Program-made: the position numbers and the translations under genes
In this document: one piece after another, positions 10,097-40,428 of the stretch
Position numbering within the stretch: position 1 is the stretch's first letter
Layout: each line of letters begins with the position of its first letter
Assembly (NCBI RefSeq): GCF_002159335.1
Contig: NZ_NFHP01000005.1
Coordinates: 1 to 64,000, forward strand
From: Collinsella sp. An7
Lineage (GTDB): Bacteria > Actinomycetota > Coriobacteriia > Coriobacteriales > Coriobacteriaceae
Length of the DNA stretch: 64,000 nt
Direction: 5' to 3'
Notes under the pieces: model-generated
What the model was told of the DNA's origin: nothing
Seen by the model: only the letters and a program-made list of their open reading frames with translations
The model's database searches: none

Positions 10097-10213
10097 TCAT
10101 GCGGGCGCGAGCGAGCCGGATGGGACGTCTCTAGGCAAAGCGCACAGGGCGGCGCCACGCGCGTCACCCCACTCTCCATCGAATTGAAGAACCGCTTCGA
10201 TACGCCAGACAAA

Positions 10214-10700: not shown

Positions 10701-10706
10701 ACCGGA

Positions 10707-14000: not shown

Positions 14001-14023
14001 GGACACCCCATACAATCTTACGA

Positions 14024-16294: not shown

Positions 16295-16328
16295 GCGGAT
16301 ACACTCCAATACATCGAGGATGCGGCAA

Positions 16329-17897: not shown

Positions 17898-17929
17898 CCC
17901 AATCCTTTCTGACTTAGCAATTATGATGA

Positions 17930-18724
17930 TTACAGCTCGTTGCTCTTCTGGCTTCCCGAGTACACCTTGTTGATGAGGTGGGCTATCGGCGCGGGCCAGA
18001 ACTTCTTCAGCATAATCAGGTCCTCTCTCGTCCGCGTTTCATCGCGAATGAGCGCGGTCGTCTCGGAGCCCTCGTGGATACGATGGCGCATCAGAATCTC
18101 GGGAGCGTAGATGAACGAGCCCTCGAGTTTCGAAAAGCGTTCCCACGCCTCCCAATCCAAGTCGCATTTCATATCGTCCAGAAAGACGGGATCGGGCAGG
18201 TTCGAACGGCACAGCGTGACCGACGGGCAGCAGATTGCCGACCCCAAAGAGAGCACGCACCGCTTTGCGCCACGCTTGCCGAAGTTTGCCCGATTCTTGA
18301 GCGGCCCCAGCAAACGCCGCTTCACGTTCAACAGTCTGCTGTCGTCGCACTCCACCGTCCCACGCAGCTCCCCGTAGTCGGTAAAGAAGATGAGAGGCCT
18401 CTCCTCTTTATTCACCATAGACAGCATCGCCTCGGCATAAGCCGGAAGGTAGACATCGTCTTGGTGCGCAATCGTCACCAGGGAGGTGTCACAATGTCCG
18501 ATGGCGCAGTTCCAATCGTGGGCGATCCCGGGCTCGCCATCGTTCACGTAAAGCGGGAAGCCGTATTCATGGGCCAAATGCTCAATATGCTCGTTAGGCG
18601 TCGACGTCGAGATGAGCACCCGCGTAGGAACCGATTGAGCTTGAAGCGACTTCAGACACTCCTCCAAATAGGGAGAGCTCCCATAGGCGCAAACGGCAAA
18701 GGTATGATCATCCCGAGTGAACAC
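17930..18724 (-). CDS. GT2-family glycosyltransferase
   Basis: About 264 residues, single GT-A domain. TFAVCAYGSSPYLEECLKSL opens the fold, DGEPGIAHDWNCAIG and TIAHQDDVYLP (QDD as the metal site) follow, and RHRIHEGSET near the C-terminus is common in rhamnosyltransferase-like enzymes. I prefer GTG 18724, which has GGAAG five bases upstream, over an in-frame TTG at 18736. It is the first gene of the left minus-strand glycan operon, divergent from the flippase, so the 18725-18917 gap should hold promoters for both. Confidence 0.82.
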   Translation of the reverse strand: MFTRDDHTFAVCAYGSSPYLEECLKSLQAQSVPTRVLISTSTPNEHIEHLAHEYGFPLYVNDGEPGIAHDWNCAIGHCDTSLVTIAHQDDVYLPAYAEAMLSMVNKEERPLIFFTDYGELRGTVECDDSRLLNVKRRLLGPLKNRANFGKRGAKRCVLSLGSAICCPSVTLCRSNLPDPVFLDDMKCDLDWEAWERFSKLEGSFIYAPEILMRHRIHEGSETTALIRDETRTREDLIMLKKFWPAPIAHLINKVYSGSQKSNEL

Positions 18725-18898
18725 GGCATCTTCCAATCAGAACTCAACGCATGCAACACGCAAGAGATTGTAGCTGACAACACAAGTGACATAAAGCTGG
18801 CCCGTCATAGTCAACGCAACGGCCATCAACCTCACTTCCCAGGCAAAATATGGAAGTCCTAGAGGTTGGCTGCACAACGAAGCCCTGCAGCCACACCG

Positions 18899-23684: not shown

Positions 23685-23686
23685 CC

Positions 23687-24061
23687 TCACTCTGCCCCCT
23701 CCTCGTCATCATGAAGTGACCGCGATGTATTCTCATCAAACTCCAACAGCGCGATACGCTGCGTGAGATTCTTGATCTTAATGGTCTGCTTGCTGGCGAT
23801 AACGCTCAGCGAAAGCGCAATGGCAAGCAGGCAAAACAGACCGACGAAAAAGATGAAATTAGAAGGCGTCTCAAACCCAAGTACGTTGGAAAGGGTAAAG
23901 AGCGCATCAGGAAACACGGCGCTTACCAGCAGCGCAACAGCAAGCACCAGCCACAAGAGCGAATACTTGAGCAGCAATTGCTCCTTGGCAACCAGCCTAA
24001 AAACATAGCACGTCAGGGCAACGCAAAAGACGATAACAATGACCTGAAGAACTATCGACAT
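23687..24061 (-). CDS. DUF2304 small membrane protein
   Basis: About 124 residues. Three hydrophobic spans (IVLQVIVIVFCVALTCYVF, LLWLVLAVALLVSAVF, FIFFVGLFCLLAIALSL) are followed by a charged, coiled-coil-like tail. This is the DUF2304 layout. The family is regularly found directly after DPM1-like GT2 genes, as here, and is thought to be a membrane partner of that enzyme; this is association, not proof. GGGGAG precedes the ATG, which lies two bases after the GT2 stop. Its own stop overlaps the possible GTG start of the amidase gene. Confidence 0.8.
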   Translation of the reverse strand: MSIVLQVIVIVFCVALTCYVFRLVAKEQLLLKYSLLWLVLAVALLVSAVFPDALFTLSNVLGFETPSNFIFFVGLFCLLAIALSLSVIASKQTIKIKNLTQRIALLEFDENTSRSLHDDEEGAE

Positions 24062-24063
24062 GA

Positions 24064-24771
24064 CTACTCTCCCCGCTTGCGATGCGTAATACAGGCGATA
24101 ATGATGGCCAGAGAGACCTTGATCATGTAGTAAACACTTGCAAGCGCATTGATTGACGAGACGCCGCCCTGGCGCTCGTGCATGACCACAGGAACTTCCC
24201 GAATCGCAAAGCCTCGACATGCGGCGACAGCGATAGATTCCGGCTCAGGGTAATCAATCGGGTAGCTTTCGCAAAACAACGCAATCGCACGCTTGCCGCA
24301 TGCGCGAAACCCCGATGTGGGATCGGTGACGCGAACCCCCGCGAACGCGCGCAGGCATCCTGAAAGCCACGTCTTACCCACGCGCCGCATAAAAGTCGAT
24401 TTAAAGCCTTCGGTCTCTTCGATAAAGCGCGAGCCGATCGCCAAATCCGCTCCAGCGACAACGCCCTCTACCAATTCGGGAAGATATGAGGCATCGTGCT
24501 GCCCGTCGCCATCAAACTGAATATCTATATCGTATCCGTGACGTTGGGCAAATTTATGCCCAGCCTGAACAGCGCCACCGATTCCGAGATTCTGGGGCAA
24601 ATCAAGAACCCGTAGTCCTCGTTTGCGGCATACGTCGAGTGTGCCATCGCGCGAGCCGTCGTTGACCACGATGTAATCATATCCCGCAGCAACCACATTC
24701 GATACCGTGGCAACGATGTTCTCTTCCTCGTTATATGCGGGAATAATCACCAGCACACGTGGCTCAGCCAT
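24064..24771 (-). CDS. DPM1-like GT2 glycosyltransferase (polyprenyl-phosphate type)
   Basis: About 235 residues. PRVLVIIPAYNEEENIVATV, YDYIVVNDGSRDGT and QFDGDGQHDASYLP (metal-binding DGD) are the signature of dolichol/undecaprenyl-phosphate sugar transferases. These charge the lipid carrier with one sugar on the cytoplasmic face, supplying GT-C type enzymes outside. No C-terminal membrane spans are present, so the DUF2304 neighbour may provide the anchor. ATG 24771 has GGAGGGGG five bases upstream, far better than an in-frame start at 24861. First gene of a three-gene operon ending with the amidase. Confidence 0.85.
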   Translation of the reverse strand: MAEPRVLVIIPAYNEEENIVATVSNVVAAGYDYIVVNDGSRDGTLDVCRKRGLRVLDLPQNLGIGGAVQAGHKFAQRHGYDIDIQFDGDGQHDASYLPELVEGVVAGADLAIGSRFIEETEGFKSTFMRRVGKTWLSGCLRAFAGVRVTDPTSGFRACGKRAIALFCESYPIDYPEPESIAVAACRGFAIREVPVVMHERQGGVSSINALASVYYMIKVSLAIIIACITHRKRGE

Positions 24772-24942
24772 ATAACCCCCTCCGCATCCTCGAAACGCCA
24801 TACTCTCGAAAGTATGCACGAAGCAACATGAATAGGCACGCTCGGCAGTCGGACAACACAAAAGAATAGCGATGCGAACCAGGACCGGCCGTCGCAGCCA
24901 GAACCGGTTCGCATCATCTTTTGCTGCCCAAATTACGCAGCC

Positions 24943-27900
24943 TCAGCGTACGACAACAGCTTGGGAACCACGCAGGCTATATAGAAGATAGAACCTGCTG
25001 GCATCCATGGTCACATATCCAGAAATTGAATCGGAGAGGTACACGACATTCCGGGCGCGGTCAAATCCGCGAAGCACCACCGTGTGCGAATTCGTAACCG
25101 TGAAGTACTGCTTTCCGTTGTACCACTGCCTTGCGTACACGGCCCCGATGTTCGCCTGGCGAATGGTCGACCACACGATGACCGGATTCCCGTTTTGCAG
25201 GTGGGAATACATGCCTTCGAGCGAGACGCCCGAGACATCATACGCATGACGTGCCCCTCCGTGTTGCGATAAAAACGAATTGGCCGCATTTACAATCCCC
25301 GGCGCAGAAGTGCAATTGCCCGACGAGCTATGGGGATTACCCCAAAATGCCGTCACGAAATTAGACGAACTACGCGGAAGATATGAATCGGCAATCGTAG
25401 ACTTTGCCAAACCATAGCCGTAGTAGTTGAGCACATTAGTCAGGGCAACCGACTCGCACCCTGTGGGAAGCTCGGGATATTGCATGAGACACGGCACGTT
25501 GAGTAGAGCCGCGTTTACGGAATACGGCTTGTCGCGATAGGCATTTGCCGTAGAGCCGGGCGCGGCCGACCCCTTAGCCTTGATGACAACCTGAAACGCC
25601 TCCATGCGGTACCCAATGGTGCCGGTGCCCGCCTGACCACCGTTTTTGGTCCAACCCAGCCAGCCGTAGTTCTCCACATAGGCGCGATACCAGATGTCGT
25701 AGTAGGTTGCCGCCTGACCCGTCAGCTTAATCTTGATGGCCTCGATCTGTTTGTCCTTTGCTTGAGAACCCGCATCCTTTCCCGAATAAACATCAGACAT
25801 CCAACCGATATCTTGCACGTGAACACTGTAGGAAACATCTCCGGGGACCTGCGAAGCCGAACCGTACGTCACGCGAACGCCCGTAATCGCGCGAGCCTGG
25901 CCCGTCGTGCCCGACAAAACACCGTTAGAGACAGCTTTCTGCCAGCCACCGCTCGAAAGATACGACTGATACGATACCGCTGGAGCAGGGATGTAGGCGG
26001 GCACCGAAGACGAAGGGGTGCTCGCACCTTTTGCCACCAGCTTGACTTCAATGGCTTCAATAGGACGGTTTAAACCGGTAGTACCAGCAACCGACCCGTT
26101 GCGTGCCCAGCCGAGCCAACCGTATTCTGAGCTATGCACTCGATACACAACGTCATACTGAGACGCAACAGCACCCGAAAGCTTTATCTTGACCGCTTCA
26201 ACAGAAAGGGCTCTGCCCGTCGTGCCTGCAAGCGCACCCGTGCCCACAAAACCCTGCCAGCCGATGTTCGACACGTGCGCAGATACCTCAACGGAGCCGG
26301 ACACCGAGCCGCTAAAACCAACCCGCAACGCCTCTATCGACTTTGCCTTCCCTGTTGTTCCGGCGGTTTTGCCACTCGGCACAAGCGCCTGCCAGCCGAT
26401 ATCGCGACTGTGGGCCTGGTAAACAAGCGCAGGGGAGCCGGAATTTTTACGATAAGCGTTGGAAATAGAGCCGGGCGCGCCGGAGCCCTTCTTAACCAGC
26501 TGAACCTGAAGTCCTCGGACACCGGACGCACTGCCTTCAGACCCAACGGAGGTTCCATTGCAGCCCCAGCCAGACCAACCCCACGACGCCGTATTCACCC
26601 GATACCAGACGTCGTACGCAGTCGAGAGCTCCCCAGATAATTTAATCTGAACCCCCTCGATTTGCTGGCCATCTCGCGACGAGGAAGTCTGGGCGCCATT
26701 GGCATGCCACGACCCTTCCCAAGAGCCAAACTGCCTACGGACCCGATATTCAACCGTGCCGGTACGGATCTGATTATTCACCACGAGCGAGAAAGACTGG
26801 AGCGCGTTGCCCCCTGTCGTCGATCCGATGCTCAACGGGTTTGACCCGCTCACGCTGACAGATGAGCCCGTCACGCCATACGCGACGCTGGCAAGCGATT
26901 CACTTACTCCCGCGTAGCTGTTTGCCGTAGGGCCGGGAGCCGAACCGCCCTTCTTGACAAGCTTGATCTGCACAGCTTCAACTGCGTAATTCTTCCCCGT
27001 GGTTCCCGCAGCAGCTCCGTTGCACGTCCAGCCCATCCAACCGATATTGGCAGCATGAACTCGGTACCAGATATCCCAGTCATTTGCTACCTCACCAGAA
27101 AGGCGTAACTGTATGGCCTCGATATGCTTAGCCCTGCCGGTTGTGCCGCCAGTCCCCGTAGACCAGTTCTGCCACCCGATATCTTGCACGTGAGCGCGAA
27201 CGCTCACAGTTCCGCTATGCCCGTACCACGAGATGGAGGCGGAAACGGCTTCAACAGGCAGCGCTCGTCCCGTCGTTCCGGCGGTCGCACCATTTGAAAC
27301 GTTCTCTTTCCAGCCAATATTGCGCACGTGCGCGCGATATACTACCGATGGCGGTTCATCAGCGCGGTCTTTAAAGGGTGTCGACGTTGAGCCGTCGATA
27401 CCCTCTCCCTTTTTCACCAGCTTGATCTGTACAGCCTCGACCGCGTTGCCGTATCCCACAGATCCCGCATTTTGACCGTTCGAGGTCCATCCGAGCCATC
27501 CAAAGTTCGCCACATGAACCCGGTACCAAACGTCATACTGCGCGCCCAGCTCACCCTTAAGCTTGATGTTGAGCGCCTCGATAGACTTTGCTTGACCGGT
27601 AGTTCCTACGACCTTATCGCTCGAAACCTCCTGCTGCCAGCCGAGGTCAGAAATATGAGCTCGAATGACTAAGTCCGAGACGGGGGCACCCTTGAGCGTG
27701 AATCGCAGCGCTTCCACCGCCAGGGCACGCCCCGTCGTCCCCGCCTGCACACCATTGGCTACAGGGTTCTGCCAACCGATATTTGAAACATGAGCGGCAT
27801 AGGAAAGCTCGGGCGTGAGGGTAGACGCCTCAGTGGGAGCAGACTCAAGCGATTCCGACTCAATCCCCGCGCCCTCTGTCTCCTCCTCAACGGAGCCTTC

Positions 27901-28470
27901 ATCTGCCGACTCATCCAACCCCGCATCGCTGGTAAGCTGCCCTGCAGCGTCAGTGAATCCGTCCAGGGCACTCCCCCCGGATTCGCCAATACCCGAATCC
28001 TGGTCGGGAGGATACTGGCCGGAATCCCCCTCCCCGTTGTCAGGTTCAGGGGCGCTAGGGTCGGAGTCGCTATCGGCTTCGGGATTGGCCACATCTTGCG
28101 ACCCATCGCCATCATCACCGGGCTGAACCCCTGTAACGCCATTCTCGCCAGTAGACCCTTGAGCAGATTCTCCCCCCTCTTCCTCAGAATCTCCTGAAGG
28201 GGCAACGGGCACTGCGGCATCTCCCTCGGCGTCCTGAGAACTACCGTCAGCCATATCGACGTCAGCGCTGTCTGCGTAGTATTCGTCTTCTCCAATATTG
28301 CTCTCGGCTATGAACGTCGACGAGGACCCTACCTCCTGAGATGCAGTTGAGGCTGCAACTGATGCGTATGCCGAAACGGGCCCCAGCGGACACGATATCG
28401 CCAGCAGAGCACTCAACGCTCCTACCGAAAGGCAGCGAGCTACCGCCTTGGCCAATCCCCGTCTACTCAT
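24943..28470 (-). CDS. Secreted ChW protein (15 repeats) with C39-like peptidase domain
   Basis: About 1,175 residues. After a signal peptide (LSVGALSALLAISCPLGPV) comes a very acidic, Gly/Ser/Pro-rich region to about residue 230. Fifteen ChW repeats follow in five triads; the third triad is degenerate and lacks most GW dipeptides in its first unit. The last about 190 residues resemble the peptidase_C39_2 fold: TGCESVALTNVLNYYG holds the candidate catalytic Cys (about 1002), NSHTVVLRGFD the His (about 1128), and YLSDSISG the Asp. Its substrate is unknown; surface or wall-peptide cleavage is likely. ATG 28470 is preferred over TTG 28476. Confidence 0.85.
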   Translation of the reverse strand: MSRRGLAKAVARCLSVGALSALLAISCPLGPVSAYASVAASTASQEVGSSSTFIAESNIGEDEYYADSADVDMADGSSQDAEGDAAVPVAPSGDSEEEGGESAQGSTGENGVTGVQPGDDGDGSQDVANPEADSDSDPSAPEPDNGEGDSGQYPPDQDSGIGESGGSALDGFTDAAGQLTSDAGLDESADEGSVEEETEGAGIESESLESAPTEASTLTPELSYAAHVSNIGWQNPVANGVQAGTTGRALAVEALRFTLKGAPVSDLVIRAHISDLGWQQEVSSDKVVGTTGQAKSIEALNIKLKGELGAQYDVWYRVHVANFGWLGWTSNGQNAGSVGYGNAVEAVQIKLVKKGEGIDGSTSTPFKDRADEPPSVVYRAHVRNIGWKENVSNGATAGTTGRALPVEAVSASISWYGHSGTVSVRAHVQDIGWQNWSTGTGGTTGRAKHIEAIQLRLSGEVANDWDIWYRVHAANIGWMGWTCNGAAAGTTGKNYAVEAVQIKLVKKGGSAPGPTANSYAGVSESLASVAYGVTGSSVSVSGSNPLSIGSTTGGNALQSFSLVVNNQIRTGTVEYRVRRQFGSWEGSWHANGAQTSSSRDGQQIEGVQIKLSGELSTAYDVWYRVNTASWGWSGWGCNGTSVGSEGSASGVRGLQVQLVKKGSGAPGSISNAYRKNSGSPALVYQAHSRDIGWQALVPSGKTAGTTGKAKSIEALRVGFSGSVSGSVEVSAHVSNIGWQGFVGTGALAGTTGRALSVEAVKIKLSGAVASQYDVVYRVHSSEYGWLGWARNGSVAGTTGLNRPIEAIEVKLVAKGASTPSSSVPAYIPAPAVSYQSYLSSGGWQKAVSNGVLSGTTGQARAITGVRVTYGSASQVPGDVSYSVHVQDIGWMSDVYSGKDAGSQAKDKQIEAIKIKLTGQAATYYDIWYRAYVENYGWLGWTKNGGQAGTGTIGYRMEAFQVVIKAKGSAAPGSTANAYRDKPYSVNAALLNVPCLMQYPELPTGCESVALTNVLNYYGYGLAKSTIADSYLPRSSSNFVTAFWGNPHSSSGNCTSAPGIVNAANSFLSQHGGARHAYDVSGVSLEGMYSHLQNGNPVIVWSTIRQANIGAVYARQWYNGKQYFTVTNSHTVVLRGFDRARNVVYLSDSISGYVTMDASRFYLLYSLRGSQAVVVR

Positions 28471-28490
28471 ACTCAACCCACTTCTCTTCT

Positions 28491-28529
28491 AGAAGGCTAC
28501 CTCCGGCAATAGGCCGGAGGTAGCCTTCT
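28491..28529 (-). terminator. Strong hairpin after the NlpC/P60 ChW gene
   Basis: A perfect 17-bp stem, AGAAGGCTACCTCCGGC at 28491-28507 with its complement at 28513-28529, and a five-base loop. It lies 20 bases beyond the stop of the gene at 28550-31390 and just ahead of the C39-like gene, so these two genes are probably transcribed separately. There is no long T-run. Confidence 0.7.
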
Positions 28530-28549
28530 CACACCGATGATCGCCCCTG

Positions 28550-31390
28550 CTATCCCACAAACGGACGTGCCGCCCCGATAACCGTACCGGGTGCGTTAAT
28601 GCCGCGAATCGTCACGCCCCTACCAGGCCACGAATCGATAATCTGACCGTTGCCGATATAGATTGCCACGTGCCCGCGATAGTAGATCAAGTCGCCACGT
28701 TTAATGGAGGAGACGCTCACCGGCATGAACGTGTTGTTACGATACCAGTTGGTCGAGTTATACGTCTGCTCAGGAAGCCAGCGATGGTTATACGGGTTGT
28801 ACCAGCCCAAATCCATGCCGGTAGCGTACAGGCACTGAAGCACCAGACCCGAGCAGTCCACCGCTCCTCCAGGCGCCGTCGAGTACGGCTCGATGTAGCG
28901 CGTACCGAGATACTCGTAGGCGCGCTGGATAAACGCGTTGATGCAATCCTCACGCGTGGCGTTGTAGGGAATGCGAGAGGGTGTTACATAGGTAAACTCA
29001 CCCTTGCAGTAATCGGGAAGCTTAACCGTGTTGCAGCTCACCTGGGGATATTGTGAGGGGTTCTGCCATCCGATATAGACATAGTGGTCAAAGTACGAAC
29101 GCGTAGTGGAGCCCGGAGCAGCGGAACCCTTGCCTGTAACGGTTACCTGAATCGCCTCTACCTGAAGGTTCAGTTTGGTCGTACCAGCATAGGCGCCATT
29201 CTTGGCCCAACCGAGCCATCCGTAATTCTCAACATGGACGCGATACCAGACATCAAAGTACTTCGCCGCATCCCCAGTAAGCGAGATCGAGATGGCTTGC
29301 AGGTCGTTTCCCTTGCCCGCGGCGCCGGCGATAGCGTTATTGGTCACAGCACCCTGCCAGCCCACATTTGCCAAGTGAGCCTTATAACTTACACCACCTG
29401 ACACGGCACCGCCGTAGGAAACCTTGAAGGCCTCGACAGCACGGTTTTGACCCGTGGCACCCGCAGTACCACCGTTAGAAGTTGCAGCGCCCCAACCTTT
29501 ACCTACGGAATATGCACTGTAGGAAATCGTTGGCTTGGCCAGAAATGCAGTTCCTGCACCAGGTGCCGCAGACCCTTTCTTGAGCACTCTGACCTCAATA
29601 GCCTCAACCGGGCTTGCCAGCCCTTCAGAACCGGCAGGCTCCCCGTTCTTGGTCCATCCGAGCCATCCGATGTTGCGGACATGGGCGCGATACCAAATGT
29701 CATACGTATCGCCAAGGGAGCCATTCAAGCTAATCTTGACCGCTTCTATAGGCAGACCGCGACCTGTCGTTCCAGCTGTTGCGCCGTCACTCACGGCTTT
29801 CTGCCAGCCGATATTTGAAACATGAGCAGAATAGCTCACCGACCCGGAGCCCAATCCCGGCAGAGAAAGCGTGAACGCCTCGAGAGACTTCGCCTGACCG
29901 GTCGTTCCAAGTGTAAACGAAGGAGTAGACGATGAGGACTTGGAGCTCCTCCATCCAATTTCGGAAATGTGCGCACTCCAAATGGCCGTCGGACAACGGA
30001 AAGCGTTCGCCGTGGAACCCGGAGCACCCTTCCCCTTGGCAACAAGCTGGATCTCAACCGCCTGAGCAGCTTTGGCGTAGCCCTGCGATCCCGCACTTGC
30101 GCCGTTAGAGGCCCATCCGCCCCAGCCAAAATCCGCGGAATGTACCCGATACCAAACGTCATAAGAATTGGCGACATCACCGGTAAGCTTGATTTGCAAG
30201 GCCTCGATGGGGAGATTCCTGCCCGTTGTCCCCGCTTGGCCCGATGTCCAACCCTGCCAGCCGATGTTTTGAACATGAGCACGAACCTGTACGGCGCCCG
30301 AACCTGCGGAACCTCCGAGCGAAATCGTCAATGCCTCAAGATTGAGGTTTTTGCCGGTCGTTCCCGCTTGAGCGCCATCGGCCACCTTGCCCTGCCAACC
30401 TATATTCTGAACATGGGCGCTATACCCAATGGCATAGGTTCTAAAGGCATTGGCAGTGGAACCCGGAGCAGAACTGTTCTTGGGGAGCAAGACGACACGC
30501 ACCGCCTGAGCAGATTTGGCGTAGCCCTGCGAGCCTGCGCTCTCGCCATTCTTTGCCCAACCGGACCAACCAAAGTCGGCAGAATGGACCTGATACCACA
30601 CATCGTAGCTATTCGAAAGCTCGCCCGTCAGCCGTATTTTTATCGCCTCGATAGGGAGGTTCTTGCCAACTGTCCCCGCAACGCCGTTTGAGGAAACCCA
30701 ATCCTGCCAACCGATATTGCGAACATGGGCCATTACCTGGATATCGGAGCCATCGGCGCCCGAAAGATGAAGTCGCAGTCCTTCAAGGTTGAGATTTTGG
30801 CCGACCGTCCCGACAACCGCCTGTTCGCCCACCGGCCTGAGCCAACCGCGGTTCTGAACATGAGCCTCAACCTGAACAGCAGGCTTGGAAGCTTTCGTTG
30901 CGGAATCCCCGTCGCTACCTGTAGCAGATGGCTCCTGCTCGCTAAGTATTTCAGGATTAGCAGCGCCCTCAACCTCCCTCTGCTCATCTTTAGATTCACC
31001 AGTAACTTCGCTAGGAGAAGCGTCGGGTGCGGCAGTAGCAGAATCTTGATTCTGGTCCTCGGAGGGCCCCGAGGGAGCTTCCGGAGAAGAGGGGGTCTCC
31101 TCAGGCGCGCTCACATCTGCCGAGCCGGAGCCTGTATTAGTATCTACCTCATCTGCAGAAGATGATGCCAGGCCCTCAGAGTCATCAATGGGACTCTCTG
31201 GCGAGCCTGACGATGTATCCCCCGGTAACTCCTCAACGTCCTTCTCAGCCTGCTCAGCAGACTCAGCCAGAGGATGCAAAGAAGCTGCACCATCCTCTCC
31301 AGCAAATGCAAGAGAGAAGGGCATCGTCACAAGTGCGATAGCCAATACGGACGCACTTACGCCCACCAACAGTCTCTTTATTCCCCTCAT
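28550..31390 (-). CDS. Secreted ChW protein (12 repeats) with NlpC/P60 domain
   Basis: About 946 residues. A signal peptide (VGVSASVLAIALVTMPFSLA) and acidic Ser/Pro-rich region precede twelve ChW repeats in four triads (about 165-775). The C-terminal domain is NlpC/P60-like: GGAVDCSGLVLQCLYATG carries the catalytic Cys (about 844), KRGDLIYYRGHVAIYIGNG the His, and IIDSWPG follows. Such enzymes cut gamma-D-Glu-meso-DAP bonds in wall peptides. I chose ATG 31390, preceded by GGGGAGGAG; an upstream ATG at 31405 lies inside that site. Confidence 0.9.
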   Translation of the reverse strand: MRGIKRLLVGVSASVLAIALVTMPFSLAFAGEDGAASLHPLAESAEQAEKDVEELPGDTSSGSPESPIDDSEGLASSSADEVDTNTGSGSADVSAPEETPSSPEAPSGPSEDQNQDSATAAPDASPSEVTGESKDEQREVEGAANPEILSEQEPSATGSDGDSATKASKPAVQVEAHVQNRGWLRPVGEQAVVGTVGQNLNLEGLRLHLSGADGSDIQVMAHVRNIGWQDWVSSNGVAGTVGKNLPIEAIKIRLTGELSNSYDVWYQVHSADFGWSGWAKNGESAGSQGYAKSAQAVRVVLLPKNSSAPGSTANAFRTYAIGYSAHVQNIGWQGKVADGAQAGTTGKNLNLEALTISLGGSAGSGAVQVRAHVQNIGWQGWTSGQAGTTGRNLPIEALQIKLTGDVANSYDVWYRVHSADFGWGGWASNGASAGSQGYAKAAQAVEIQLVAKGKGAPGSTANAFRCPTAIWSAHISEIGWRSSKSSSSTPSFTLGTTGQAKSLEAFTLSLPGLGSGSVSYSAHVSNIGWQKAVSDGATAGTTGRGLPIEAVKISLNGSLGDTYDIWYRAHVRNIGWLGWTKNGEPAGSEGLASPVEAIEVRVLKKGSAAPGAGTAFLAKPTISYSAYSVGKGWGAATSNGGTAGATGQNRAVEAFKVSYGGAVSGGVSYKAHLANVGWQGAVTNNAIAGAAGKGNDLQAISISLTGDAAKYFDVWYRVHVENYGWLGWAKNGAYAGTTKLNLQVEAIQVTVTGKGSAAPGSTTRSYFDHYVYIGWQNPSQYPQVSCNTVKLPDYCKGEFTYVTPSRIPYNATREDCINAFIQRAYEYLGTRYIEPYSTAPGGAVDCSGLVLQCLYATGMDLGWYNPYNHRWLPEQTYNSTNWYRNNTFMPVSVSSIKRGDLIYYRGHVAIYIGNGQIIDSWPGRGVTIRGINAPGTVIGAARPFVG

Positions 31391-31480
31391 GGCACTCCTC
31401 CCCATCTAGCACCGTTGAGACAGATTGTGGTCTCTCCGTGGAGTTAAGTATACCTCCACCGCATCCCCACCTTGATACAG

Positions 31481-31514
31481 AAGCGGGGCGCGGCACCCGC
31501 ACCGCACCCCGCTT
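31481..31514 (-). terminator. Hairpin after the sialyltransferase-like ChW gene
   Basis: Stem AAGCGGGGCGCGG (31481-31493) with CCGCACCCCGCTT (31502-31514), one G-U pair, loop of eight bases. It lies about 45 bases beyond the stop of the gene at 31560-34925. Confidence 0.65.
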
Positions 31515-31559
31515 GACCATGCACGCAATTCCGTAGCCTCAGCCACGATGCCGGAAGTC

Positions 31560-34500
31560 TTATGCAACCTCAGATGCGTGGGAGGTGTCACCAGGAGCCG
31601 GGGCCCCTTTTTCCACTAGAATAACCTGAATGGCCTCGACAGGAAGCGCGCGACCAGAAGTTCCCGCCATGCTTCCGTTGCTCGCCCATCCCATCCAACC
31701 GATATTGCTGACGTGCACGCGATACCACACGTCGTAGTGCTGCGCCATCTCGCCAGTAAGCTCAACACGAATCGCCTCAATCGGCAGCGCACGTCCAGTC
31801 GTGCCCGCCTGGACACCATCCTTAGCCCAACCCTGCCAGCCGATTTCGGACACGTGGGCACGATAGCGAATCGATCCGCTGTAGGGAGCATTCTGAAGGC
31901 TCAGCTTGAGCGCTTCGAGTGACTTTGCCTGTCCGGTTGTTCCGGCAACACCGCCGTTTTTAACAACCTGCTGCCAGCCAAGGTCGGAGACATGCGCCTC
32001 CGCAGCCACCGAAGTTCCCGCCCGCTTAACGCCGACTTTGTGATAGCCACCATTTGTACGGGAATAAAGAGTGACGGCCGCATCCTCCTTACTGTAGATG
32101 CCGACGGCATAGCCATCTTGAGCAGCTGCCTGATCTGAGAACTCAATCAAGAAGCACGTCCGACCCGTGGGGCACAGCGCCCGTATATCTGCAGCGGCAG
32201 AAGAGGTCACCGGAGTGGCAAACCAGTCGATACCGGAATAGTCAATCGAACTATCCGGGGAAAGGGCCTCGTCCTTTGTCGCGCCAAAGAGGCCACACGC
32301 CATCTCTGACGTTGCCGAGTTGAACGTACTCGATCCGTAACCAGAAAGATGAACCTCAGGATTAAAGAACAGAATGAGCTCCGCCGCAACGGAGGAATCG
32401 ACATCGGTGATACCGAGCCTATCCAGCTGCTCTTGCTTCTGCGGATACATGTCAGTTGGGGTGTTCGGGTGACCTTTGTAGTAATAGGCGTACTCGTCGC
32501 CGTAGAGAATCTCAGTGATATCAGCGTACTCCTCAAAATACTGCTCACTCGTCACATAGGTGCCCAGAAGGATCATCGGCGTTTTGCCCTGCTCCTCGGC
32601 TTCGGTAAAGTACCCATCACTCAGGCTATACAGCTTCTTGAGCGCGTTGACCGTTGAGGAGCCTTTGCTCTGCAGGTCGCTCAACATGCTGGCGATGTTC
32701 TTTGCCTTAACCTGCGGGTTGGAAGAAATCTTGCCCGCAAACGCATTGCCGTCACCACTAGTAAAGAGATTGGTCCTGGTCATCCACCATTCGGTACCCG
32801 GCTCGCAGGCAAGAACCGCGTACATTGAGTCCCAGTGCTCATGAAAACCGTAGCCGGCCGAAACACGCCCCGTTGCGTACGCTTGGCTCTTTGCCGCATT
32901 CCACGAGGCAATTAGTTGATCTTGCTTGGCCTGCGGGTTCGATATCGCAAAAGCCTCGTTGGTAAACACATAGGTCGCCGACCCATCGGAGAGCATGGTT
33001 ATGCGGTACTGCCCCGAAGGAATCTTGTTGGCATAGATTATCTGGTGGATAAGCGTGCAGGTGATGTCATTGATATAGAGGTTGAACTTCGAGTTGGGAT
33101 TGAGCCGATACAGCGCGCCGACATAATCCGCAAAAGCCTGGTAATTGCTCGAGGTCTTGATGGCGCTCTGGGTAAGGTATGGCATGCCGTACATCCCAGA
33201 GGGCAGACTGTCCCAATTGTATGCGGACGGGCGATCGAGCATCACGATGGTCGGAATACTTGATCCAGCGGTACTCGTGTTGATATCCCAATACGACAGA
33301 GAGAAAAGCACCACGGGAAACGATGCAGAAAGCGGTGCCAAATTGTACTCGCTTGCGGTAACGCCCACTTCTTTGGTGACGCTCGCCACCACACGGCTGC
33401 CGTTGCGATACGAGACCGTGACCGAGAACGGACCATACGTGCCAAAGTTAAGCCGATACCCATCGCTGGGAATCTGCGCGAGCGCGCAGCTGCCGCTCAC
33501 CGACCTCGTGGTCTTTCCGTTGTAGCTCATCGTGGCCGTGACGCGCATCTCAGTCGCACCGGCGGCACGGAGCCGCGCAGCTGTGGCGGGAGCGATTGCA
33601 ACCGTTGTGGACTCACCTACTTGGGAGAACGTAGTCTCGGCCAGATTTGGTACAAAGTGGTCATCGACCGGGCCGGGTGCCTCGGCATTCTTGGGCAGCA
33701 AGAAAATCTCGACGGCCTGAACCGAACGGGCCCACCCGCTGCTGCCTGCATCTTCGCCGTTCTTTGCCCAGCCGAGCCAACCGAATTCAGCTGAATGGAC
33801 GCGGTACCAGATATCGTACGACTTTGAAACATCTCCGGTGAGTTTAAGTGAGATTGCCTCGATGCCAAGCGCACGGCCCGTGGTGCCAATCGTTCCGCCC
33901 GTAGTCCAATCCTGCCAGCCAACATTGGAGACGTGCGCCCTCATCTGAACACCGCCGCTTCCGGCACCAGCGCCCAACGATACACGAAGTGCCTCCATCT
34001 GGAGGTTCCGTCCCGTCGTGCCCGCCACGGCACCATCATCGACGCTTCCCTGCCAGCCGATATCTGCCACGTGTGCGCTATATGTGATGAGCGGTATGCG
34101 GAACGCAGGAGCATCGCTCGACGGCCCCGCTTCATTCTTAGGGTACAGGCGAACCTCAATCGCCTGAGCTGCCTTCGCGTATCCCTGGGAACCGGCACTC
34201 TCACCGTTCTTCGCCCATCCGAGCCATCCAAAATCGGCGGAGTGGACACGGTACCAGATATCATAGCTATCGGCGATGGTGCCAGTTAGCTTAAGCTGAA
34301 TGGCCTCGATAGATAGGGCCTGACCTGTTGTGCCCGTCTCGCAGGTCTCCCACTCCTGCCAACCAATAGTAGAGACGTGCGCGCGGACCAGAATGCCCGA
34401 ACCCGCGGGAGCCCCTTTAAGCTGAACGCGCAACGCCTCAAGAGGAAGATTCCGCCCCGTTGTTCCCGCGGTCTCGCCAAGACCCACCGCAGGCCTCCAC

Positions 34501-34925
34501 CCAAGATTCGACACATGGGGCTGTATGGAAAGCGTCGGAGCAGCCGTGGGCGCAGCGTCAAGAGTCTGCAGTTCTTCAGCAATCGCCGAATCATCGGCGA
34601 CACCGGCTGTCGCTTCCTCTCTGCGCGATGCCGGAGATGCGGCAGATGTCTCTACCGTGCTTGAGTCAGCAGAAGGTGCAACGACATCTGAATCAGCGAC
34701 GTCCTCAGCGGGCTTGTCTGCAACGTTCTCATCGCTCGTCGCACCGCTCTCCACGTCAACGGAAGGCGAGTCCGGCGGGGTGTTGACTTTCTGTTGATCA
34801 AACTCCGACGACACCGCCCCACCCTCAGAGGGCTCAACGGTATCTACCGCCCAGGCGACGTGAGGGGCCGCAAGCAAAAACGCAAGCCCCACAACGGCAA
34901 GTAGCGTGGCCTTCTTTCTGAGCAT
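31560..34925 (-). CDS. Secreted ChW protein (9 repeats) with internal sialyltransferase-like (GT80-like) domain
   Basis: 1,121 residues. A signal peptide (LLAVVGLAFLLAAPHVAWA) and Thr/Ser/Asp-rich region lead to two ChW triads, an Ig-like segment (about 430-530), a large domain (about 535-945) and one final triad. The large domain recalls GT80 sialyltransferases: MLSDGSATYVF (about 645) for the YDDGS motif with the catalytic Asp, YYYKGHP (about 818) for the CMP-binding Lys-His, SSVAAELIL for the conserved Glu, and GYGSSTF (about 863) for the Ser-Ser pair. All four elements are in family order. A glycosyltransferase with an export signal is unexpected. Enzyme activity is inferred, not shown. 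Confidence 0.72.
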   Translation of the reverse strand: MLRKKATLLAVVGLAFLLAAPHVAWAVDTVEPSEGGAVSSEFDQQKVNTPPDSPSVDVESGATSDENVADKPAEDVADSDVVAPSADSSTVETSAASPASRREEATAGVADDSAIAEELQTLDAAPTAAPTLSIQPHVSNLGWRPAVGLGETAGTTGRNLPLEALRVQLKGAPAGSGILVRAHVSTIGWQEWETCETGTTGQALSIEAIQLKLTGTIADSYDIWYRVHSADFGWLGWAKNGESAGSQGYAKAAQAIEVRLYPKNEAGPSSDAPAFRIPLITYSAHVADIGWQGSVDDGAVAGTTGRNLQMEALRVSLGAGAGSGGVQMRAHVSNVGWQDWTTGGTIGTTGRALGIEAISLKLTGDVSKSYDIWYRVHSAEFGWLGWAKNGEDAGSSGWARSVQAVEIFLLPKNAEAPGPVDDHFVPNLAETTFSQVGESTTVAIAPATAARLRAAGATEMRVTATMSYNGKTTRSVSGSCALAQIPSDGYRLNFGTYGPFSVTVSYRNGSRVVASVTKEVGVTASEYNLAPLSASFPVVLFSLSYWDINTSTAGSSIPTIVMLDRPSAYNWDSLPSGMYGMPYLTQSAIKTSSNYQAFADYVGALYRLNPNSKFNLYINDITCTLIHQIIYANKIPSGQYRITMLSDGSATYVFTNEAFAISNPQAKQDQLIASWNAAKSQAYATGRVSAGYGFHEHWDSMYAVLACEPGTEWWMTRTNLFTSGDGNAFAGKISSNPQVKAKNIASMLSDLQSKGSSTVNALKKLYSLSDGYFTEAEEQGKTPMILLGTYVTSEQYFEEYADITEILYGDEYAYYYKGHPNTPTDMYPQKQEQLDRLGITDVDSSVAAELILFFNPEVHLSGYGSSTFNSATSEMACGLFGATKDEALSPDSSIDYSGIDWFATPVTSSAAADIRALCPTGRTCFLIEFSDQAAAQDGYAVGIYSKEDAAVTLYSRTNGGYHKVGVKRAGTSVAAEAHVSDLGWQQVVKNGGVAGTTGQAKSLEALKLSLQNAPYSGSIRYRAHVSEIGWQGWAKDGVQAGTTGRALPIEAIRVELTGEMAQHYDVWYRVHVSNIGWMGWASNGSMAGTSGRALPVEAIQVILVEKGAPAPGDTSHASEVA

Positions 34926-35003
34926 GTCGAACCCATCCTCTCCCCATCAATCCGCCGCCCACACACCTTCGCGCGGACGACGAATTGCGTAACGCTCATC
35001 AAG

Positions 35004-38000
35004 TTACCAGATTACGACCTTCGTCCCACGCGGGATATGGTCGTAGATCCACTTGGCATTCTCGAGGGCAAGCCGTACGCAGCCTTCGGAGACCTGCACA
35101 CCCAGGCGACCATCCTGAACGTTAAACGTCCCCGGATTGTACTTAATCGAATGGAACAAGTAGTCGCCGTAGAACTGCGTGTAGTAGTAGCAGCTGTAGC
35201 CGTGCCCAAACACGTAGCCCTTTGCCTGTACCGTGTACTGGCCTTTCACGGTTGGCGTTGACGGTTTTCCCGGTCCGCACGGCCAGTAATAGAGCAGACT
35301 CCAGTGGCCTCGACCACCGACGAACACCCCCGTTCGACACGTAGCGGTATCCACGGCGAGGAGATAGCCCGTTGCACTCGAGATACCCTGAATCCGATTC
35401 GTCATGGCAAGCTGATCCGCCGGCACAAGGGGTTTTTCGGTATAGGACATAGTTGTGCTTCCGGGCGCCGGGGCACCCTTTGCCACGATTATTACCTGAA
35501 GCGCCTCGGCGCGATACCCTATTTTGGCCGTGCCCGCCGTAGAACCATTTTTAGTCCATCCAAGCCATCCGTACCCCTCAACGTGAGCGCGATACCAGAT
35601 ATCGAAATAGTTTGCCAGCTGACCGGTGAGCCGGATCTGCACAGCCTCGATCCTCTTGTTCTGGCCCGTTGTTCCCGCCAAAGCCCCGTTAGAGACTTCT
35701 TTCTGCCAACCAACATCTTGCACATACGCCCGGTAGGAAATGCCACCAGAAATCTGTGAAGACACCGAGAGCTTTACGCCTTCGATCTTGAGTGCCCTGC
35801 CGGTGGTTCCCGAGACACCTCCATTGCCCACCGTACTCGTCCATCCCAAGTCCTGAACATGAGTTTGCAGCGCAAGGGTTGGAATGCAAACGCTCGCAGG
35901 AACCGATGATGTCGGTCCAGCCGTGCCCTTTGGCACCAGCTTGATCTGAACGGCCTCAGCCTGCACGGCAAGGCCGGTTGTTCCGGCAACTTCCCCGTTC
36001 TTGGCCCAACCCAACCAGCCATACCCGGAGCTGTGAACACGGTAATAGATGTCGTACGAGTTGGACAGATCCCCGGTCAGCTGCAGCTTCACGGCCTGAA
36101 TTGCACGGTTCTTACCCGTTGTCCCGGCAAAAGAAGGTGCTGCAGCAGCAGACTGCCAGCCCGCGTCGGCAACGTGAGCGGTTACTTGAACAGTTCCGGA
36201 CGCCTTTGCATTTTGCACCGACACCCGCAACGCTTCGAGCGCAAGCCCTCTGCCGGTCGTACCCGCAGTGGCACCATCGGTCACTGCTGCCACCCATCCG
36301 ACGTTTGAGCTATGGGCTTGATACACAACCCGCGTAGATCCAGCGCTTGGCTCGACGAATGGCCCCGCAATCGAACCCGGCGCAGACGAGCCCTTCTTGG
36401 TCAATGCAACCTGAATCGCATTGATTCCGTCCGAGAATCCGTTAACACCTGCGGACGCACCGTTCGAGGTCCAGCCGAGCCAACCGCGACCCACAACCGA
36501 TACCCGATACCAAATGTCATATTTCGATGCCAAATCACCCGAAAGCTTCAGCGCGACCGCGCTCATCGCAAGCCCATTATTCCCAGTATTAACCTGGGTT
36601 CCTTCGCCAGTCCAAGAACCCTGCCAGCCGCTATACGTCAAAAGCGCACGGTACGACAAAGAGCCTTCGGCGATCTTGTTATTAACCGATACCGAGAACG
36701 ATTGCAGCGGATTCGACGACCCGGTGCTCCCGATGGCAACGGACGAAGCTCTTGAACTTGAAGTTTTCGCCCCACTCAGCGTGATTCCCGAAAGTGTAAG
36801 CGATTCCTCAGCCCCAACATAACTATTGGTGGTAGACCCGGGAGCACCCTTACCCTTTTGCACAAGCTGTATCTGGACCGCCTGAATGCTACACGCCTTA
36901 CCGGTGGTGCCCGCCGGAGAAGCGTTCGATGTCCAGCCAAGCCATCCAAGATTCGTTACGTGAACGCGGTACCAAATGTCGTACGACTCGGCTGCGGAGT
37001 CCGTAAGCCTTATCTGGAGTGCCTCGATGGAAAGCCCCCTTCCTGTGGTCCCAGCCGTACCAGAAGTCCAGCCCTGCCAGCCGATATTGCTAACATGCGC
37101 TCGCACCTGAACACCGCCCGAGGAAACCGCACCTCCGAGGGAGATGCTCAAGGCCTCAATCCCAAGGTTCTTCCCCGTCGTACCGGCAGCAGAACCATCA
37201 GTCACCCTTCCTTGCCAGCCAATGTTTGATACGTGAGCCTGATACCCGATGTAAAACACTCTGAACGCATTCTTTACCGAGCCGGGAGCGGATGATCCTT
37301 TGGGAAGCAGCTGAATCTGAACCGCCTGGGCAGCCTTGGCATATCCCTGCGAACCCGCACTTTCGCCGTTTTTGGCCCAACCTCCCCAGCCAAAATCAGC
37401 CGAGTGGACCCGATACCAGATGTCATACTGATCAGCAATTGGACCGGTGAGACTCAGCCTCAGTGCCTCAATAGGGAGGTTCCTGCCAACCGTGCCGGCA
37501 ACTTGGCCAGCCTGCACCGAGTTGATCCAGCCCAAATTGGAAACATGTGCCTGGAGCGAGATGCCCGAACCATCAGGAAATCCGACCAACGAGATTCTTA
37601 GCGCCTCCAAGTGGAGGTTCCTGCCGACTGTACCCGCTGTTTTCCCCAGCGAAACCGCATTTTGCCAACCGAGATTCTGCACATGCGCCTCAATGCCGAG
37701 CGAGGGCTTGGCTGCAGAATTGCTCTGGGCCTCTACAGAATTGTCCGCAGCGGACAATGGTGCAGCCTCCTCCTGCTGGATGTCGCCACCACGCTGAGGC
37801 GTGCTCTCCGAAGTGGAGTCCGGAGTATCCGCTGCGTTGTTATCCGCCGACGCAGTCGGTTCAAGCTCGTTCGATCCATCATCAGCTTCGGCGGGGGGAT
37901 CCGCCGGCACGGCCGATTCATCCTGTCCGTCGGTCTCCCCGTCCCCCGAAGGAAGAGCCGGACTCTCCCCCTGCTCCGTTGCAGCGTCAGTAGAGTTGAC

Positions 38001-38186
38001 ACTATCCCGATCAGAGTGGTCGGCCGCATCCGCGGCTGCAGGGACTTCACTCATTGGTTGCGATGCAGCATCTTGTGCATAGCTTGAAAGGGGAGAGAAT
38101 AGTAGCACCCCGGCCAACATACCGAGAGCTACAGTCTCGGCCAGTAACGCAACGCTCCTACGACGACTTGCAAAAAAGCCATTCAT
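35004..38186 (-). CDS. Secreted ChW protein (15 repeats) with L,D-transpeptidase (YkuD) domain
   Basis: About 1,060 residues. A signal peptide (ALLAETVALGMLAGVLLFSPL) and acidic region to about 170 precede fifteen ChW repeats in five triads. As in the C39-like protein, the third triad is degenerate (LQSFSVSVNNKI, SGWQGSWTGEG). The C-terminal domain (about 940-1060) is YkuD-like, with LFHSIKYNPGTF, then LGVQVSEGCVRLALENAKW holding the catalytic Cys (about 1032) in the S-x-GC-R motif. It would make 3-3 crosslinks in peptidoglycan or attach proteins to wall peptides. ATG 38186 follows GGAGG; an earlier in-frame ATG at 38210 has no site. Confidence 0.9.
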   Translation of the reverse strand: MNGFFASRRRSVALLAETVALGMLAGVLLFSPLSSYAQDAASQPMSEVPAAADAADHSDRDSVNSTDAATEQGESPALPSGDGETDGQDESAVPADPPAEADDGSNELEPTASADNNAADTPDSTSESTPQRGGDIQQEEAAPLSAADNSVEAQSNSAAKPSLGIEAHVQNLGWQNAVSLGKTAGTVGRNLHLEALRISLVGFPDGSGISLQAHVSNLGWINSVQAGQVAGTVGRNLPIEALRLSLTGPIADQYDIWYRVHSADFGWGGWAKNGESAGSQGYAKAAQAVQIQLLPKGSSAPGSVKNAFRVFYIGYQAHVSNIGWQGRVTDGSAAGTTGKNLGIEALSISLGGAVSSGGVQVRAHVSNIGWQGWTSGTAGTTGRGLSIEALQIRLTDSAAESYDIWYRVHVTNLGWLGWTSNASPAGTTGKACSIQAVQIQLVQKGKGAPGSTTNSYVGAEESLTLSGITLSGAKTSSSRASSVAIGSTGSSNPLQSFSVSVNNKIAEGSLSYRALLTYSGWQGSWTGEGTQVNTGNNGLAMSAVALKLSGDLASKYDIWYRVSVVGRGWLGWTSNGASAGVNGFSDGINAIQVALTKKGSSAPGSIAGPFVEPSAGSTRVVYQAHSSNVGWVAAVTDGATAGTTGRGLALEALRVSVQNAKASGTVQVTAHVADAGWQSAAAAPSFAGTTGKNRAIQAVKLQLTGDLSNSYDIYYRVHSSGYGWLGWAKNGEVAGTTGLAVQAEAVQIKLVPKGTAGPTSSVPASVCIPTLALQTHVQDLGWTSTVGNGGVSGTTGRALKIEGVKLSVSSQISGGISYRAYVQDVGWQKEVSNGALAGTTGQNKRIEAVQIRLTGQLANYFDIWYRAHVEGYGWLGWTKNGSTAGTAKIGYRAEALQVIIVAKGAPAPGSTTMSYTEKPLVPADQLAMTNRIQGISSATGYLLAVDTATCRTGVFVGGRGHWSLLYYWPCGPGKPSTPTVKGQYTVQAKGYVFGHGYSCYYYTQFYGDYLFHSIKYNPGTFNVQDGRLGVQVSEGCVRLALENAKWIYDHIPRGTKVVIW

Positions 38187-38363
38187 GCATCCTCCATCCC
38201 TCGGACACATAGAGTCTCCATAATTATACGCCTTGGGCCATCCGCAATATCGTTGGAAATCCAGACTGAAACAGGAACGAATCGTCAGCTCCGAAGGCTC
38301 TACGGATTCTCGGTGGCGTCAGGCCGCAAAGTGATGGGGCCCATTGGCAGCGTTGCACGATAC

Positions 38364-38427: not shown

Positions 38428-40230
38428 CTACTCAGACTTGCGGTCCTTGCGCTTGATGAGGCCGGTTTTGCCGGCGTAGACAAACGTGGCGCCAAAGGCC
38501 GCGGCAGAGGCACCGGCAAAGCCTGCGACGAGCGCGAGGTCAGCGGTTTGCGGCAGGTTGCCAGTCGGCTTGTTGGCCTGCTTCGCGCCAGCGCTCGAGG
38601 CATCGTCGTTCGTGTCGCCGCCCACCGTCTGCTGCGCGGGGTCGGGCTTCTCCCCCGTCGCCTCGTCGCCGCCCGATCGAATGTCCTCCTCGTCGCTCGG
38701 CGAGGACGTCTCCTCCTGCTCCTCATCCTGGCTCTCGGTGGTCGCCTCAACCGATCCCTCAGCGCCCTGCGTACCGTTAGCCTGCTCATCAACCTTGGCG
38801 TCCTCGTCAGACGCACCGTCAACATCCGCCGCGTCATCGGCAGACGGCACATCCGACCCCTCAGTCGTGGTGTTACCCGACGGCGCGCTCGGCGCGGGAG
38901 CAGGCTGGGACGGCGTCACGCTCGGACGCACCACCTCATCAGAGGCGCTCTCCTCCTCATCCGCCTCCCCAGCATCACCAGCGGGCGCAGATTCCGTGAG
39001 AATGTTGTTCACGCCAGAATTGGAGTTCGCCGAATTCGACGCACTACCATCCCCAGACCCACCATTGCCGGCCGCGTCACTCTGCACCGCGTCATCCACA
39101 ACCGCATCATCTTCCGACCCGGCAGAGTCGCCGGAACCGCTCTGCCCGCCAGAAGCAGAGCCATCACTCACCGCATCGTTCTCCGGAGCAATCCCGCCGG
39201 CCGTATCACCCGCCGACCCGGCACTCCCCTCACCAGCGCCCGCGTCGTCCGCCGGCGCGTCAGAGCTCCCGGCATTCGTCTCGTGCAGCGAGATGTAGGC
39301 CAGGCAGTCGTTCATTTCGTTGCGATAGCGGTTCCTCCAGCCCTTGTAGTACTGCGTCTGCGAGCTGTACTGCGCGATGTTGTCCGTCATCTGGGTTGCC
39401 AAGGCCGTCACAAACTCACGGTCCGTCATGTCGTTGCGAAGGTTCGCCCCTCGCAGGACCTTCTTAACGCCGCCCGTGCCCCACAGATTGGAGAGACCCC
39501 AGACCATCCCCTTCACGCAATCGGAGCGGCCCGACATATCGATGCCAAGCTCGCTCTTGAGCCAGCGCTCCGTGGGAAGGTAATAGCTGTTGTACGCGTA
39601 CGCGTCTTGAAACGCCGAGAACTCCGCGGGATCGGCGTCGTACGCAGCGTACCAGGCGTTCTGCACGGTCCGCCCAAGCTCTGTAAGCGTGCCGGCGGTC
39701 TTGTCATACATAGAGGCCGCACTCTTAATCTCAGAGCCGCGGTCAACAATCACCTTGAGCATCGCATACTTTGAGGGGTTCGTGCTGTACACAGCGGACA
39801 GGAACGGAACGAGCGAGTAGCGCCGATCGAACTGGTAGTATCCGAGTGCGTTATAGCCGTCGCCCGACCCAAAACCCTGGCGGTAGTTGCTGTGGCTCTC
39901 GTACTTGGTAAAGTACTTCATCTCGGCAGAGACGCTCACCGAAGAGAGGCTCGAGGCCAAGGAGCGCGCAGAGAGCGTCGACGCGACAGCGGCATCCTCG
40001 CAGAAGTCGGTCTTGTCGTAATCGCTCGGCGCGGGCAGGGTCACCGCCGGCTCGTCCTCGGCGGTGGCTACATCCGTATCGGCGGACGACGCGGCTTCCG
40101 GCTGCGCCGCAGCGTCGGCATCATGCTCGACGGGCGCCTCCTCGGCGTAGACGGGCGCGGCCGCTTGCGCGGCACCAAGGGAGAGCGTTAGGGCGAGTCC
40201 TGCGGCAACGGCGAGGTGACGGGGCTTCAT
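38428..40230 (-). CDS. Wall-anchored surface protein with lysozyme-like domain and LPQTA sorting signal
   Basis: About 600 residues. A signal peptide (LAVAAGLALTLSLGAAQAAA) is followed at about 100-320 by a compact domain with FTKYESHSNYRQGFGSGDGY, NALGYYQFDRRYSLVPFL and GLSNLWGTGG. The E-SH...YYQFD pattern looks like a lysozyme-like fold, but this is tentative. A 230-residue Asp/Ser/Gly/Glu-rich stalk leads to NLPQTADLALVAGFAG, a hydrophobic span and KRKDRKSE, a sortase signal with Ala in place of Gly after the Thr. No sortase gene is seen nearby. GGAGCG precedes ATG 40230. Confidence 0.75.
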   Translation of the reverse strand: MKPRHLAVAAGLALTLSLGAAQAAAPVYAEEAPVEHDADAAAQPEAASSADTDVATAEDEPAVTLPAPSDYDKTDFCEDAAVASTLSARSLASSLSSVSVSAEMKYFTKYESHSNYRQGFGSGDGYNALGYYQFDRRYSLVPFLSAVYSTNPSKYAMLKVIVDRGSEIKSAASMYDKTAGTLTELGRTVQNAWYAAYDADPAEFSAFQDAYAYNSYYLPTERWLKSELGIDMSGRSDCVKGMVWGLSNLWGTGGVKKVLRGANLRNDMTDREFVTALATQMTDNIAQYSSQTQYYKGWRNRYRNEMNDCLAYISLHETNAGSSDAPADDAGAGEGSAGSAGDTAGGIAPENDAVSDGSASGGQSGSGDSAGSEDDAVVDDAVQSDAAGNGGSGDGSASNSANSNSGVNNILTESAPAGDAGEADEEESASDEVVRPSVTPSQPAPAPSAPSGNTTTEGSDVPSADDAADVDGASDEDAKVDEQANGTQGAEGSVEATTESQDEEQEETSSPSDEEDIRSGGDEATGEKPDPAQQTVGGDTNDDASSAGAKQANKPTGNLPQTADLALVAGFAGASAAAFGATFVYAGKTGLIKRKDRKSE

Positions 40231-40428
40231 GTCGCTCCAATCTGCGGCTCTAAAGAGCAACCGCGGTTAAGGTACAGGTCACAGACCGTAGGAAGCCCAG
40301 TATTGCAAGCGCGTTACGCAAGGGTCAAGCGAATCACCCTACGCCCACGCAATTCGATTAAGGTTGAAGTTCAGCTTGAAGCGTGGGGCCCGGCGTTTTC
40401 GGGGCAAGCCGTTCGCCCCCGCCGGCCG

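Follow-up and report, generated by a model that had tools for sequence, protein, structure and literature searches.

In the GT80 sialyltransferase PmST1, D141 serves as the general base, and the D141A substitution lowers activity about 20,000-fold; H311 contacts both the phosphate and the sialate carboxylate, the H311A variant is 30-fold less active, and D140 is said to make no substrate contact (PMC2169525). In a polysialyltransferase, the glutamate equivalent to E338 of PmST1 binds the ribose hydroxyls, and the equivalent lysine contacts cytosine (PMC5517516). The H85D variant of PdST, which has been compared with PmST1 H112A, retains donor hydrolysis and loses transfer. GT80 enzymes are also reported to carry out CMP-dependent reverse sialylation and to have sialidase and trans-sialidase activity (PMC10795189, PMC8512710). 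Gonococcal Lst uses host CMP-sialic acid, and the earlier view of its surface location was revised recently (PMC11078009). Our literature searches on Collinsella sialyltransferases and on extracellular bacterial sialyltransferases returned nothing relevant, and we found no paper on a GT80-like surface family in the library searched.

Here, we describe an exported protein of Collinsella sp. An7 with a GT80-like domain at its center. The window that we analyzed is a 64,000-nucleotide stretch of contig NZ_NFHP01000005.1, and its relevant features are as follows:

31560–34925, minus strand: whole ORF, with exactly these ends; ATG start, 1121 aa; exported ChW protein with the GT80-like domain at its center
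34848–34925, minus strand: signal peptide, residues 1–26, ending in AWA (MLRKKATLLAVVGLAFLLAAPHVAWA); from the sequence and from N-terminal export signals family-wide
33681–34538, minus strand: two N-terminal ChW triads, about residues 130–415 (Pfam PF07538; GW positions)
33360–33653, minus strand: Ig/FnIII-like beta-sandwich, about residues 425–522 (AlphaFold2 model; VIA Z 9.9 against FnIII domains)
32067–33359, minus strand: predicted GT-B domain, GT80-like, about residues 523–953 (models, Foldseek, VIA, hhalign)
33231–33233, minus strand: codon of the invariant R565 (aligned to PmST1 R63)
32985–32987, minus strand: codon of D647, predicted catalytic base (PmST1 D141; alignments, role from PMC2169525)
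32466–32477, minus strand: KGHP, K817–P820 (H819 = PmST1 H311, K817 = PmST1 K309; alignments, roles from PMC2169525 and PMC5517516)
32379–32381, minus strand: codon of E849 (PmST1 E338; alignments, role from PMC5517516)
32328–32333, minus strand: codons of S865-S866 (PmST1 S355-S356; alignments)
31608–32009, minus strand: C-terminal ChW triad, about residues 973–1106 (Pfam PF07538; GW positions)
35004–38210, minus strand: upstream neighbor, an exported ChW protein with an L,D-transpeptidase (YkuD) domain (Pfam)
28550–31405, minus strand: downstream neighbor, an exported ChW protein with an NlpC/P60 domain (Pfam)

The initial annotation of this DNA, made from sequence alone, had proposed an exported, wall-binding protein whose central domain lies between ChW triads. 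Pfam bore this out: PF07538 (E 6e-109) found nine ChW repeats, six N-terminal to the central domain (two triads) and three C-terminal to it (one triad), and the 1121-aa protein has both the repeats and the export signal of a ChW cell-surface protein. The Ig/FnIII-like domain that precedes the GT-B domain is an addition to that annotation.

The gene is one of five in a row on the minus strand (20238–38210) that encode exported ChW proteins, each with a different cell-wall enzyme: an amidase with glucosaminidase, a C39-like peptidase, NlpC/P60, the GT80-like domain, and YkuD. Adjoining this row is a 610-aa ORF (38428–40260, minus) with a T6SS_VgrG3-like_C domain (E 1e-9) at residues 191–315; the lineage of this genome is Gram-positive. 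A surface-polysaccharide cluster at 2778–18736 (minus) encodes a GlfT2-like galactofuranosyltransferase, GT2/GT4 enzymes, and a DUF2142 membrane protein, and is interrupted by a Mutator-family transposase at 10983–12143 (plus). Neighbor-gene clustering revealed no family-wide conserved partner gene, save other ChW proteins, GT2 enzymes, and DUF2304 at some loci.

We built two AlphaFold2 models from family alignments (pLDDT 91.0 and 91.3). In Foldseek, the best 13 matches of the first model and the best 18 of the second were all GT80 sialyltransferases, with E-values of about 1e-8 to 1e-10 (lowest 1.9e-10). VIA gave Z-scores of 18.9–23.5 for 21 GT80 entries and 10.2 for the next protein. Both comparisons thus assign the predicted structure the PmST1-type GT-B fold of GT80, and the predicted fold, named beforehand as a refutation test, is GT-B and specifically GT80-like. 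The best overall structural match was 2z4t, in an alignment spanning the Ig-like and GT-B domains; the longer model has an FnIII/Ig-type beta-sandwich at about residues 425–522, and the Ig-like domain of 2z4t is likewise placed. On these models, the view that the central domain is built like the GT80 sialyltransferases is well supported.

Four GT80 elements had been read from the sequence in order, and we find them as S646-D647-G648-S649, K817-G818-H819-P820, E849, and G862-Y-G-S865-S866-T867. An hhalign comparison of 55 family members with five GT80 sequences, drawn from the Vibrio plasmid and PDB alignments, aligned all four, DG(S), KGHP, E, and SS, with an E-value of 6.8e-7. Three MAFFT modes agreed in placing R565, D647, S649, and G788-T789 on PmST1 R63, D141, S143, and G266-T267, and K817, H819, E849, and S865-S866 on K309, H311, E338, and S355-S356. 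The Asp and His that the initial annotation expected in GT80 positions are therefore there in hhalign and MAFFT alike, as D647 on D141 and H819 on H311. D647 and G648, the catalytic Asp-Gly pair, were invariant in all 64 aligned relatives covering both positions; K817–P820, which includes the HP motif, and E849, the counterpart of the ribose-binding Glu, were invariant in 65 of 65 aligned relatives, and the S865-S866 positions held Ser or Thr in nearly all. Our second scan relied on KGHP and AELILF patterns, which overstates how conserved KGHP and E849 are among the 67 loci; no pattern covered D647, however, and the same residues were invariant in a 16-member alignment obtained mostly from a pattern-free whole-genome search. 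Judging from these alignments, the four-element match is no chance.

Other GT80 marks were missing. The D/E-D/E-G motif lacks its first acidic residue (PmST1 D140), with Ser in 54 and Thr in 10 of the 64 relatives covering the position, and neither H112 nor W270 of the acceptor site is conserved, other residues being aligned there by hhalign and MAFFT. The window protein did not match Pfam PF11477 (GT80) at its curated cut-off, which a single relative (L082) passed with 27.7 against 25 bits. With PF07388 (polysialyltransferase), the window domain scored 20.5 bits, below the cut-off of 23.3; one relative (L075) passed with 28.7 bits, and weak matches occurred in 25 of 55 relatives. A PF11477 search of the whole own genome gave one chance-level match, elsewhere, and a PDB sequence search with family profiles gave none. 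The link to GT80 was made through one divergent relative, profile-profile comparison, and structure. No NCBIfam model matches the family, and the catalytic domain of the window protein passes no Pfam family cut-off. Since the first acidic motif residue, the acceptor residues, and the Pfam cut-off all fail, we call the domain GT80-like and do not claim membership; that it is GT80-like and works like GT80 is a well-supported prediction.

When whole genomes were searched, the domain turned up in 11 of the 67 from the family and in 20 of the 299 from the order. It was absent from all eight other genomes of the same genus, and the gene is therefore accessory. A one-genome-per-species scan yielded 67 loci, some of them on MAG contigs that may be mis-binned, in Collinsella, Slackia, Senegalimassilia, Thermophilibacter, Actinomyces, Trueperella, and Propionibacteriaceae, and also in Lachnospiraceae, Erysipelotrichaceae, Christensenella, Anaeroplasmataceae, a spirochaete, and others. 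The relatives that keep the site, about 65, come from Coriobacteriia, Actinomycetales, Bacillota, Mycoplasmatota, and a spirochaete. In a tree, the ChW-bearing Bacillota (Sellimonas, Drancourtella, and Thomasclavelia) stood beside Coriobacterial members within a 13-member group (support 97/97), a placement that suggests transfer between phyla. We found no relative of the domain on plasmids, phages, or viral contigs. One genome (G039; L011/L013) holds a copy with in-frame stops, one TGA and two TAG in its larger piece, which is probably a pseudogene or an assembly error; relatives hold intact copies.

The initial annotation had suggested asking how widely the domain occurs with export signals; we found a hydrophobic one at the N terminus of every relative with a readable start (55/55; 53 by a simple rule and two by eye), compared with 125 of 337 neighboring ORFs given the same freedom of start choice. 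These were signal peptides, lipoboxes, or N-terminal anchors, with several single-pass membrane anchors. Some lipoprotein calls made by the lipobox rule proved to be ordinary signal peptides, and only about nine relatives look like true lipoproteins (e.g., L065, L067, L069, L077, L080–L082, and L085). The modules accompanying the domain differ between members, with ChW present in 11 of 48, ricin-type lectin in eight, LRR_5 in eight, choline-binding in two, and SLH in one. With export signals family-wide and modules varying, we reasoned that the domain is extracellular by design rather than through a single odd fusion.

A GT80 from a Vibrio harveyi plasmid (PF11477, 104 bits) starts with a lipobox signal, MFNRFKTALGLVLVVVTMISGC, and the Photobacterium JT-ISH-224 sequence (2z4t) has a lipobox-type LLTLILLTACNN near its start. 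Marine GT80s therefore also look exported, and the export puzzle is shared and no oddity of the window protein alone. Nucleotide-sugar donors had been considered unexpected outside the cell. The strangeness of a surface location is diminished by these two enzymes and by the reverse GT80 reaction: trans-sialidation would need only CMP and a sialoglycan, and could thus let such an enzyme work outside the cell. The Vibrio gene itself, on the conjugative plasmid pvh5 (NZ_CP150472.1; L095, 1655–2869), is annotated as a hypothetical protein and lies upstream of an outer-membrane beta-barrel protein gene.

Within the own genome (99.7% complete), PF02348 gave GlmU-like and weaker matches, and neither a NeuA nor a CMP-Kdo synthetase was seen; the candidate NeuA match was rejected as GlmU. 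PF03102 matches near 45 bits were likewise rejected as NeuB, the own-genome one reading as DAHP synthase, and no BNR_2 sialidase was seen in this genome. NeuA/NeuB were absent from 18 of 19 domain-bearing Coriobacteriales genomes, the own one included. CMP-sialic acid is therefore not self-made and, if it is the donor, comes from elsewhere; lacking NeuA, NeuB, and a BNR_2 sialidase, the genome offers no positive link to sialic acid. The exception, G148 (C3 59433–60919; L096, L100), has a CTP-transferase/NeuB pair beside a DegT-type aminotransferase, possibly a locus for another nonulosonate of pseudaminic or legionaminic type. By eye, two distant relatives (L063, −4 to −2; L077, +1 to +3) adjoin genes for an apparent CDP-glucose 4,6-dehydratase, a TPP enzyme resembling acetolactate synthase, and an SDR, a combination like that of branched CDP-sugar (yersiniose-type) pathways. 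A relative of the dehydratase also lies near L082.

Our preferred reading, which we consider reasonably probable, is a cell-wall-bound extracellular GT80-like transferase whose CMP-linked donor, most likely sialic acid, comes from outside. The signal peptide would export the protein, the ChW triads would keep it wall-bound, and the Ig-like domain would present the GT-B domain. This domain would bind CMP via K817, H819, E849, and S865-S866, and D647 would act as the base on an acceptor hydroxyl, so that a nonulosonic acid, most likely sialic acid, would be transferred from CMP with inversion. Scavenging might supply the donor, or a reverse (trans-sialidase-like) reaction might generate it on site from CMP and host sialoglycans. 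Because the GT80 galactose-acceptor residues H112 and W270 are not conserved, the acceptor, and perhaps the chemistry, would differ. We infer the activity, the identity of the donor as CMP-sialic acid, its outside origin, and the acceptor; sialic acid is the leading, unproven candidate for the substrate. Against host sialic acid stands the presence of members in bacteria from termite guts and reactors (source inferred from isolate names), where it is scarce.

It is doubtful, although a reading to be taken seriously, that the protein is instead an active GT80-like enzyme using another CMP- (or CDP-)activated sugar, such as another nonulosonic acid or Kdo, and decorating a cell-wall polysaccharide. 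The HP motif and CMP-site architecture are common to beta-Kdo transferases (PMC5517516), the acceptor-side residues of GT80 are lost, and the window gene lies near polysaccharide glycosyltransferases. The gene content of the domain-bearing genomes fits as well, with NeuA/NeuB missing from all of the 19 Coriobacteriales genomes but G148, whose layout suggests another nonulosonate, and with apparent CDP-sugar genes beside L063 and L077. However, H819 aligns with the PmST1 His that also contacts the sialate carboxylate, PF02348 detected no CMP-Kdo synthetase in the own genome, and the CDP-sugar neighborhood is confined to two or three loci, with a CDP leaving group that would differ from CMP.

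The initial annotation had also raised a lectin derived from a transferase, and we find a lectin or a CMP-sensing pseudoenzyme for adhesion to host glycans improbable. Its surface location beside binding repeats, the ricin-type lectin modules of eight relatives, the lost acceptor residues, and a donor that is not self-made would all suit such a protein; the base D647 and the whole CMP-contacting set, however, are invariant down to about 30% identity, and a general base and a phosphate-binding His are not expected in a lectin. Finally, GT-B folds are alike, and UDP-sugar enzymes do appear lower in the VIA lists (Z about 10), but a merely generic match to another class, e.g., an NDP-sugar epimerase or a UDP-sugar transferase, is strongly disfavored and very improbable given the Z gap (18.9–23.5 versus 10.2), the profile E-value of 6.8e-7, the conserved CMP-site residues, the extra Ig-like domain placed as in 2z4t, and significant Pfam matches for sialyltransferase families only.

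Bacteria coated with sialic acid can evade the immune system of the host, and the sugar is an object of competition among gut bacteria. Conserved GT80-like enzymes on commensals that lack their own CMP-sialic acid, as in our preferred reading of a wall-bound transferase, would point to host- or neighbor-fed extracellular sialylation. A nucleotide-primed trans-sialidase family of gut and oral bacteria, using environmental CMP to move sialic acid (or a like sugar) from host glycans to bacterial surface glycans, seems to us unlikely; if true, it would mean widespread undescribed extracellular transferases that work without their own nucleotide-sugar synthesis. This family opens the old question of why export signals occur on some GT80 enzymes to direct testing, and it may yield glycan-remodeling enzymes with new specificity.

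Compared with known systems, Neisseria Lst (GT52) is likewise a transferase needing CMP-sialic acid that its bacterium cannot make, but it is of a different family and without wall repeats, and gonococcal Lst is a partial precedent. The polysialyltransferases (GT38/PF07388; MhPST, PDB 5wcn) have in common the HP motif, the ribose Glu, and an acidic residue preceding Gly, with a lower structural match (Z about 10). PmST1/PM0188 of Pasteurella multocida (GT80) shares the fold (Z about 21) and the CMP site, whereas the window protein lacks equivalents of H112 and W270 and falls below the PF11477 cut-off. From the Photobacterium alpha2,6-sialyltransferases (JT-ISH-224, PDB 2z4t; P. damselae 0160, PDB 4r83), the window protein differs in its low structural identity (11%–12%), its S-D-G in place of D-D-G, its lost galactose-acceptor residues, its wall-binding repeats, its Gram-positive and related hosts, and an own genome without donor synthesis genes. 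These enzymes nevertheless have an Ig-like domain followed by GT-B, as here, with the catalytic Asp, the His, the ribose Glu, and the Ser-Ser in the same order and spacing, and the likeness to 2z4t extends to the N terminus, where a lipobox-like signal corresponds to the export signal of the window protein.
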